Origin: an uncultured Thermofilaceae archaeon
GTDB taxonomy: Archaea > Thermoproteota > Thermoprotei > Thermofilales > Thermofilaceae
Length of the DNA: 64,000 nucleotides
Assembly: GCA_938036345.1 (NCBI GenBank)
Contig: CALHPJ010000001.1
Span: 1-64,000, forward strand
Direction: 5' to 3'
A program made the translations under genes and the position numbers. The notes beneath the pieces are model-generated. The model saw nothing but the letters and a program-made list of their open reading frames with translations, had not been told where the DNA came from and searched no databases. Below, one piece after another: positions 20,322 to 22,585 of this stretch. Each line of letters begins with the position of its first letter. Within the stretch, counting starts at the first letter, position 1.

Positions 20322-20915
20322 TTTTTCAACGATCAATCTAAGATAATCGGCCATGGGGATCTCGACTTCCTTCCCGCAGTGCTTGCACTTGAATACCACG
20401 TGTTGCCCCCTTATTGCCACCAGTTTCCGGAGTGTCCTACCGCAGTAGCAAACAAAACCCCGCAGCCTGGCGGGATTTCCTAAAACTAGACCGTGCGGCG
20501 GAACGTCCTTTGTCACTACTGAACCGGCCCCCACCATTGCGTATTTACCGACTCTAACTCCGCACACTATCGTGGCGTTAGCACCTATGGACGCCCCTTC
20601 TTCAATTAGAGTGGGAACCAACTCCCACGATTCGTTGAAGGCTCGCGGGTACCGGTCATTTGTAAGAGTGGCGCTGGGCCCTAGGAAAGCCTTTTCCTTC
20701 ACAGTGACACCCCTGTACACTGAAACGAAATTCTGTATTTTAACGCCCTCCCCCACTGAGGCTCCGCTGTCTATGTAAACGCACTTACCCACATTGCAAT
20801 TAGAGCCTAGCTTAGCTCCCTTTCTCACGTGCACAAAATGCCAGATTCTAGTGCCGACGCCCACGTCAGCCCCTTCCTCCACGATGGCTGTTGGGTGAAC
20901 GTAGTAATCAGCCAT
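20310..20915 (-). CDS. Hexapeptide-repeat acyltransferase with C-terminal zinc ribbon
   Basis: Left-handed beta-helix transferase, similar to sugar O- or N-acetyltransferases of surface polysaccharide synthesis. Hexapeptide repeats run from about residue 5 to 150 (AIVEEG, VGVGTR, IGANAT, VGAGSV). The last 50 residues add CYCGR and CKHCGK, a probable zinc ribbon not needed for the helix fold. The acceptor cannot be deduced. Its first bases overlap the end of the YhbY gene by eight. Confidence 0.83.
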   Translation of the reverse strand: MADYYVHPTAIVEEGADVGVGTRIWHFVHVRKGAKLGSNCNVGKCVYIDSGASVGEGVKIQNFVSVYRGVTVKEKAFLGPSATLTNDRYPRAFNESWELVPTLIEEGASIGANATIVCGVRVGKYAMVGAGSVVTKDVPPHGLVLGNPARLRGFVCYCGRTLRKLVAIRGQHVVFKCKHCGKEVEIPMADYLRLIVEKSIS

Positions 20916-21168
20916 GCTTTTTCACCCTTTGCAAGAGTATTGTGTAACCCCTCACTTGGACCACCTGGGCCCTAAGGGCTTGAGCAAGCTCGGCAGCAAT
21001 TGCGGCCTTATTTTCGCGGTTAACCCCGTGCGCATCTCGGAAGTTCTTCAAAAGCTGTACCTTTACAAGGCTACGGACTCGGAGCACGTTATCAATTTCT
21101 TTAAGTAGGGCGTCGGTAATGCCTTTCTTTCCAATCCTTACTGTGACAATCTCCTCCGGGTTTACCAT
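20908..21168 (-). CDS. YhbY/CRS1-domain RNA-binding protein
   Basis: An 86-residue stand-alone CRM (YhbY) domain. The signature VRIGKKGITDALLKEID (10-26), then LVKVQLL and a conserved late VVQVRGYTILLQR strand, match archaeal and bacterial YhbY proteins linked to ribosome assembly. Length is normal for a single domain. It is cotranscribed with the hexapeptide transferase and divergent from the TtuA-like gene. Confidence 0.9.
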   Translation of the reverse strand: MVNPEEIVTVRIGKKGITDALLKEIDNVLRVRSLVKVQLLKNFRDAHGVNRENKAAIAAELAQALRAQVVQVRGYTILLQRVKKHG

Positions 21169-21224
21169 CAGGCAAGTATCTACAACTACGTTTTTAACGT
21201 CTGCTATGGAAACAGGGGGGCCAT

Positions 21225-22163
21225 CTGGTTAAGTGCGACATTTGCTCCAAGGAGGCAGCGGTTAAATCGGCCTACCTAGGGCTGCACCTCTGCGACTACC
21301 ACTTTTCCCAGTACTTCGAGCGCAGGTTTCTCAAGACGGTGGAGAGGTTCAAGCTTTTCAAACCCGGCGATAGGGTTGCGGTCGCCGTATCAGGGGGTAA
21401 GGATAGCCTGACGCTGCTTTACCTGCTTTCCAAGTACAGGGACCAGTTAGGAGTTGAGTTGGTAGCCGTCCTCGTGGACGAAGGCATAAGCGGGTACCGG
21501 GAGTACAAGCGGTTCACCGCCGAAAAGTACGCGCGCGCATGGGGGGTTGAGCTACGCATTGCATCTTTCAAGGAGAGATTCGGTTTTACGCTAGACGAGG
21601 CGGTTTTTGCGCTGATGATGGAGGGGCTATCGGTAAAGCCCTGCTCGGTCTGCGGTGTTCTTAGGCGGTACTTGCTCAATCGCACAGCGCTTGAAGTCGG
21701 GGCCGATAAACTGGCCACTGCCCACAACCTAGACGACGAGGCCCAAGCTTTTCTAATGAACGCCATCCAGGCCAATCTGACCGCTTTCTCAAGAGAGGGG
21801 ATTGCCGATACGAAGGCTCACGAGCTTCTGGTACCGCGAGTTAAACCGCTCTACTTTGCACCCGAAAAAGAAGTGATGGCGTACGCTCTTCTCAATTCGA
21901 TTGAAAGCCCCTACGTTGAGTGTCCCTACATAGTCTACTCCATGCGCAATGTGGTGCGCAGATGGCTTAACTACGTCGAGCTTGAGGACCCCCTGGTTAA
22001 GTACAGGGTACTCGCTTCTAAAGAGCTCTTGGCCGGGGTATACAAGGAAGCGGGCGAATTCAAGTTATGCAAGCTTTGCGGCATGCCTTCTTCGGGGGAT
22101 TTATGCAAGGCGTGCGAGGTTTCAGAGGAAGTAAGAAGGATTTATAAATTAAAAAGGTCGTAA
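21225..22163 (+). CDS. TtuA-like tRNA 2-thiolation protein, start probably CTG
   Basis: PP-loop ATPase of the TtuA/TIGR00269 group, which thiolates U54 of tRNA in thermophiles. Read from CTG 21225 (312 residues) it has N-terminal zinc ligands C4, C7, C23 and H26 (CDIC, LCDYH), PP-loop SGGKDS (56-61), Cys pair CSVC near 140 and Cys near 232 placed like the 4Fe-4S ligands, and C-terminal CKLC/CKAC zinc ligands. The first ATG/GTG/TTG in this frame is GTG 21339, which would delete the N-terminal finger. An in-frame TAA at 21195 bounds the start. GGGGGG at 21215-21220 and a tttttaacg box about 30 bases upstream support a start near 21225. Confidence 0.82.
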   Translation: MVKCDICSKEAAVKSAYLGLHLCDYHFSQYFERRFLKTVERFKLFKPGDRVAVAVSGGKDSLTLLYLLSKYRDQLGVELVAVLVDEGISGYREYKRFTAEKYARAWGVELRIASFKERFGFTLDEAVFALMMEGLSVKPCSVCGVLRRYLLNRTALEVGADKLATAHNLDDEAQAFLMNAIQANLTAFSREGIADTKAHELLVPRVKPLYFAPEKEVMAYALLNSIESPYVECPYIVYSMRNVVRRWLNYVELEDPLVKYRVLASKELLAGVYKEAGEFKLCKLCGMPSSGDLCKACEVSEEVRRIYKLKRS

Positions 22164-22201: not shown

Positions 22202-22585
22202 ATGTTCATTCCCAGATACCTCCTCAGGCAGCTATACGTCAAAGGCAGCTTAGAGAACGTGGATATCAACGGCGATGGGGTGCTTGATGGCGCTAAGATA
22301 AAGCTCAGGAATACTTTGGGTGGTGGAACCGTACGGGGTAGGTTGCGGGCCATAATCGACGGTGAAGAAGTACCTCCTGAGAAGATACTAATCGAGTTTA
22401 AGGGAGAGAGAATGAGAGCATCTGAGGCAGCAGGGAGATCGATGTACGTTGCTGTCGGGGATGAAATCGATATTTTCTTCGAGCTTGGTAAAGCGCTCGC
22501 CCCCGGCGAACACAAGATAGAGTTAGAACTCGATGTGCAAGAGCTAGGACCAGTAGGCTTCGACTTCACAGATGTAGTGAAATAA
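22202..22585 (+). CDS. Small conserved beta-rich archaeal protein
   Basis: A 127-residue protein that opens FIPRYLLRQLYVKGSLENV and continues with alternating strands, ending in a PGEHKIELELDVQELGPVGFDF pattern. I think it belongs to a small archaeal family found alone or at the end of larger enzymes (possibly DUF6379), but I cannot confirm this. A DxNxDG-like DINGDGVLDG near 22-31 could be a calcium loop. A frame open on the opposite strand is a shadow. No signal peptide. Confidence 0.7.
   Translation: MFIPRYLLRQLYVKGSLENVDINGDGVLDGAKIKLRNTLGGGTVRGRLRAIIDGEEVPPEKILIEFKGERMRASEAAGRSMYVAVGDEIDIFFELGKALAPGEHKIELELDVQELGPVGFDFTDVVK

Follow-up and report, generated by a model that had tools for sequence, protein, structure and literature searches.

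A candidate CTG start codon for an intact NcsA/Ncs6-like tRNA 2-thiolation gene in an uncultured Thermofilaceae archaeon

The question that this locus raises is where translation begins in a gene whose reading frame is intact and has no canonical start codon at the place where one is needed. The window, which is the whole stretch of DNA that was analysed, comprises 64,000 nucleotides (positions 1 to 64,000 of the forward strand of contig CALHPJ010000001.1), and all positions given here are positions of the window. A stop-to-stop frame on the plus strand, open from the TAA at 21195, runs from 21198 to 22163; its translation reads RLLWKQGGHLVKCDICSKEAA..., and its codons from 21198 are CGT CTG CTA TGG AAA CAG GGG GGC CAT CTG GTT AAG TGC. 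The sequence-only reading, that is, an earlier inspection of the letters of this DNA, had claimed that no ATG, GTG, or TTG lies in frame between TAA 21195 and GTG 21339 and that a zinc finger of the CxxC/CxxH type is nevertheless encoded in this frame. Reading the frame codon by codon showed that both claims hold and that the finger is intact. It had also predicted that ordinary gene callers would cut off about 38 residues together with the metal site, and this is what happens: an ORF lister that accepts ATG, GTG, and TTG starts the gene at GTG 21339 and returns 274 amino acids as against 312, with the loss of 38 residues that include C4, C7, C23, and H26. The features of the gene are as follows.

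21225 to 21227, plus strand: putative start codon CTG, three codons before the first zinc-finger Cys and aligned with the TTG start of the sister genome G001.
21225 to 22163, plus strand: NcsA/Ncs6-like tRNA 2-thiolation enzyme of 312 amino acids, with the PP-loop SGGKDS, PCSVC, VECPY, and a C-terminal zinc ribbon.
21234 to 21302, plus strand: N-terminal zinc finger, C4-x2-C7 ... C23-x2-H26, recognised by a PF22082 match just below the cut-off and by alignment to the solved TtuA PH0300.
21339 to 21341, plus strand: GTG, the first canonical in-frame start, at which ordinary callers would begin.

The SGGKDS, PCSVC, and VECPY motifs align with those of the solved structures TtuA 5MKO (190.7 bits, the best single match) and NcsA 6SCY (177.5 bits), and the catalytic and metal-binding cysteines are all kept. 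Because the PP-loop and these cysteines are intact, the ncsA-like gene looks functional as far as its sequence can tell. Pfam PF22082 (TtuA_LIM_N) matches residues 3-27 with 25.0 bits against a cut-off of 27 and with all four metal ligands present, and a finger of this type is common to the orthologs on the NcsA side too. The score against the NCBIfam TtuA model NF049949 is 187.9 bits, below its cut-off of 450, and that against the NcsA model NF047749 is 181.7 bits, below a cut-off of 500 that is set for close equivalogs, so that the proper label is NcsA-side member of the family and not certified NcsA. In a family tree of 52 proteins the window protein does not group with the Pyrococcus TtuA; it falls on the NcsA side, the clade that holds the Methanococcus reference, while the Pyrococcus reference falls in the TtuA clade together with the second paralogs that related genomes carry, and both sides of the split have a support of 100 (SH-aLRT). 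Its CGVLRR motif resembles the CGVIRR of NcsA, whereas the members of the TtuA clade in which the motif was seen carry CG..KR. Thus, the description of the gene as TtuA-like was right about the tRNA-thiolation family and the finger but not about the branch, since the tree puts the protein with NcsA/Ncs6 and the TtuA paralogs separately. From these comparisons the protein would belong to the NcsA/Ncs6 (U34 thiolase) side of the family and not to TtuA proper, and a role at the wobble uridine U34 of tRNA Lys, Glu, and Gln is predicted. The genomes G001, G002, G006, G008, and G009 each have a TtuA-type paralog; a search of the archaeon's own genome (G000, an assembly that is about 92% complete) found no second, TtuA-type copy.

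In the closest sister (G001, locus L082), with 69% identity, the frame is closed by a TAG 11 codons ahead of the first Cys and offers one canonical start only, a TTG at codon -3 relative to that Cys, which is exactly aligned to CTG 21225 of the window. The start position is therefore matched in the sister genome but the CTG itself is not kept there. The ortholog in G011 also has TTG at -3 and that in G002 has GTG at -3. When the homologues with a canonical start were counted, the nearest such codon was at -2 in 38 of 69, at -3 in 12, and at -4 in 7, and a further 26 homologue hits of the same class (about 25 distinct genes) all have a canonical start. When about 99 homologues of the family in which the finger could be recognised were scanned mechanically, four came out without a canonical start, namely, the window gene, G016, L052, and L030. 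The copy in L052 looks frameshifted and the L030 hit arose as an artefact of the search pattern; for L131 and L135, the stops flagged as in-frame turned out to be terminal ones only. A search of plasmids for close DNA found none. The identity to G001 is 71% over residues 2-38 and 70% over the rest, with third-position changes dominating, and in the ten in-frame codons upstream of CTG 21225 only 10 of 30 nucleotides match. By this comparison the N-terminus with its zinc finger is as constrained as the remainder of the protein. When codon usage was scored with start codons left out of account, the coding signal had its best 5' end at exactly 21225.

The region upstream of the CTG has the following features.

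20908 to 21168, minus strand: divergent CRM/YhbY-domain gene, which shares the intergenic region with the ncsA-like gene.
21191 to 21199, plus strand: TATA-like promoter box TTTTTAACG, 10.3 bits with a position weight matrix (PWM), its first base lying 34 nt before CTG 21225.
21206 to 21232, plus strand: out-of-frame mini-ORF, ATG...TAA, of 8 codons and a stop, read from the sequence, its ATG lying 15 nt from the box start.
21215 to 21220, plus strand: GGGGGG run, 4 nt before the CTG, a weak Shine-Dalgarno candidate, with about 30 such runs in the window.

The PWM was trained on the upstream regions of other genes of the same genome, in which the distance from the box start to the true start codon peaks at 28-32 nt and has a shoulder that reaches 38 nt. 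Measured from 21191, CTG 21225 lies at 34 nt, ATG 21206 at 15 nt, and GTG 21339 at 148 nt. The sequence-only reading had placed such a box about 30 bases before the CTG, which agrees with a spacing that falls within the range of the genome, and its coordinates are correct to a base or two except that four bases (CCAT) and not five separate GGGGGG from CTG 21225. The other in-frame CTG, at 21201, is implausible as a start, for a single base separates it from the box. A near-identical box, ATTTTAACG, precedes the neighbouring gene at 22202 at an almost equal distance. In G001 the box is 38 nt from the TTG, the leader being somewhat longer, and the TTG is preceded by GGGGAGG, for which a Shine-Dalgarno role is possible. 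Read on the minus strand, the box at 21191-21199 gives a weaker box 30 nt from ATG 21168, which suggests a shared bidirectional promoter region of the yhbY-like and ncsA-like genes.

If transcription starts about 26-31 nt from TTTTTAACG, then the mRNA would begin at about 21217-21224 and would have a few leader bases at most. The GGGGGG run would then probably coincide with the transcript start or precede it, and its use as a ribosome-binding site, which the sequence-only reading had implied, is doubtful because most of the run would be left out of the transcript and the window contains many runs of this kind. Similarly, ATG 21206, the sole ATG nearby, probably lies outside the transcript because no more than 15 nt separate it from the start of the box. 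Because the sister TTG is aligned with it, the promoter spacing fits, and residues 2-38 are constrained, CTG 21225 is the best-supported start for the ncsA-like gene, as the sequence-only reading had proposed.

These distances and alignments also bear on three other ways in which the gene could be expressed. Translation from GTG 21339, giving a protein without the finger, would use the first canonical start in the frame, but it is scarcely credible: the only strong box is 148 nt away from the GTG, the constraint on residues 2-38 matches that on the remainder of the protein, the orthologs keep the finger, and the product would lack 38 residues that the solved TtuA and NcsA have. A start at some other non-canonical codon, such as GTT 21228 or AAG 21231, has in its favour that the box predicts only an interval, about 21219-21229; the CTG, however, is the sole NTG in this interval and is the codon aligned with the sister start, and we consider such a start very improbable. 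An indel, for example an extra G in GGGGGG, or transcriptional or ribosomal slippage could join ATG 21206 to the frame and yield METGGHLVKC..., for removal of one base within 21209-21224 brings that ATG in frame and slipping could plausibly occur at the G run. Yet runs of six G are common in the window, an ATG 15 nt from the box start, where 28-38 nt is typical, would be upstream of the transcript start, and in the sister G001 a stop at codon -11 closes the frame and nothing like this extension is present. This route is thus very unlikely, and an upstream ATG with a shortened G run was rejected on promoter spacing and the sister sequences. The sequence-only reading had named a sequencing error as its alternative and had pointed to the G run. 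The alternative is a real one but does not lie mainly in the G run, since ATG 21206 is too near the box and the relatives lack the extension; a substitution in the start codon is more credible.

It may be asked whether CTG is a start codon in general use in this genome. The statistics come from the window and ten further stretches, 250 kb in all. For 69 genes with a strong box, at 27-38 nt, ATG was found 30 times against 4.3 expected and GTG 21 times against 5.3 (about 7 and 4 fold), whereas at the box-predicted positions the count of CTG was 7 and the expectation 7.8. The idea that CTG serves generally as a start codon was therefore rejected. Among about 257 gene-like ORFs in the 250 kb, no intact one other than the ncsA-like gene lacks a canonical start at the place that needs it. 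A Fe-ADH-like ORF on L111 was set aside as it has GTG/TTG directly before the domain, and a thioredoxin-like ORF on L117 was set aside as it sits amid broken ORFs. The latter region (L117, 10000-14300, contig C7 of the same genome) holds a cluster of broken-looking ORFs, with thioredoxin-like and ABC-transporter-like pieces and a long unlikely ORF, which suggests pseudogenes or local assembly errors. The GC content of the sampled contigs of this genome (L111-L120) ranges from 0.48 to 0.61 and the listed contamination is 0.38%.

A single exception means that the CTG is either a rare natural start that a single transition separates from TTG or else a wrong base. If the base is wrong, then the true codon is TTG (or ATG or GTG), the CTG is a single-base error or the base of a minority strain in a metagenome assembly, and the gene is an ordinary one. 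This is the most serious alternative, although we hold it to be unlikely. In its favour, TTG occupies this very codon in the nearest sister, CTG starts are very rare in nature, and CTG is not in general use in the genome. On the other hand, the reading frame is otherwise intact, and consensus substitution errors are rare in short-read assemblies. The assembly is a 24-contig draft, apparently a metagenome-assembled genome (MAG), of a genus without another genome. As for what is on record, about 0.024% of the start codons in bacteria are CUG, and expression from CUG is 0.86% of that obtained with AUG (PMC11497404), a leaderless CTG was ineffective in mycobacteria (PMC4633059), and a review gives AUG, GUG, and UUG as the archaeal start codons (PMC7531240). 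No example of a described archaeal CUG start was found in the literature searched. The points against the CTG reading are thus the missing enrichment of CTG in this genome, the rarity and weakness of CUG in bacteria, and the draft, apparently MAG, assembly.

The G016 homologue deserves separate consideration. This ortholog (L093, from the single-contig genome of a different species within the same family) has no ATG, GTG, TTG, or CTG between an in-frame stop at codon -25 and a GTG at +51. Its codon -3 is ACG, which follows by two bases the stop codon of a ThiS/MoaD-like sulfur-carrier gene; that upstream gene, named by eye from its sequence, encodes a product ending in SGG (Gly-Gly). The nearest sisters of G016 keep a GTG at -6, and G016 appears to be one base longer at the junction; its missing start may reflect an error or frameshifting, or the gene may be a second one with a non-canonical start. 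In several genomes of the genus g7 (L087-L093) the NcsA-like gene lies directly after a ubiquitin-like/ThiS-like sulfur-carrier gene or overlaps its end, an adjacency read directly in L092 and L093. The window gene, unlike these, is divergent from the CRM/YhbY gene.

Taking the evidence together, the locus probably holds an intact U34 2-thiolase of the NcsA/Ncs6 type that is translated from CTG 21225 as (M)VKCDIC... on an mRNA that is leaderless or has a leader of a few bases. We favour a genuine CTG start, with some confidence, over an error, to which we give a clearly smaller weight; these weights are matters of judgement and not of calculation. The CTG would most likely have arisen by one T-to-C change in a TTG start like the one retained in the sister lineage. 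If the base call is correct, as we infer, then the ribosome would initiate at CUG with the initiator Met-tRNA through a first-position mismatch, as it does at GUG and UUG but less efficiently. One may speculate further, and we do so with considerable doubt, that this is a natural archaeal gene initiated at CUG, leaderless or nearly so, in which a weak codon holds the enzyme at a low level, and that the ACG of G016 is a second case of a relaxed start. The CTG start is a small, annotation-relevant oddity. If real, it would be a clean natural case of archaeal CUG initiation with a short or absent leader and would offer a specific, testable codon; a caller that accepts only ATG, GTG, and TTG would return this tRNA-modification enzyme shortened and without its zinc finger. 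Should the CTG instead be an assembly error, the case illustrates that one base can equally truncate a gene call.

How does the locus compare with known systems? With NcsA/Ncs6 (Ctu1), the archaeal tRNA U34 2-thiolase, represented by 6SCY of Methanococcus maripaludis, the window protein shares the side of the tree, the Cys motifs, and the PP-loop; PCSFCGVIRR of NcsA and PCSVCGVLRR of the window protein are like motifs, and the length around them is equal. It differs from NcsA in that its gene starts with CTG, if the preferred reading is right, and not with ATG, GTG, or TTG, in its CxxC/CxxH finger, and in its sub-threshold NcsA score (181.7 against 500 bits). With TtuA, the tRNA m5U54 2-thiolase, represented by PH0300 of Pyrococcus horikoshii (5MKO), it shares the fold family and the CxxC/CxxH N-terminal finger, but it lies outside the TtuA clade, and related genomes carry a separate, true TtuA paralog. 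Finally, the CTG of the window is, like the natural CUG starts of prokaryotes, a first-position near-cognate of AUG at the start of an intact gene. The known bacterial cases are rare and weak (PMC11497404); the window CTG is one base away from the TTG of its sister and probably has a short or absent leader, the setting in which CTG failed in mycobacteria (PMC4633059).
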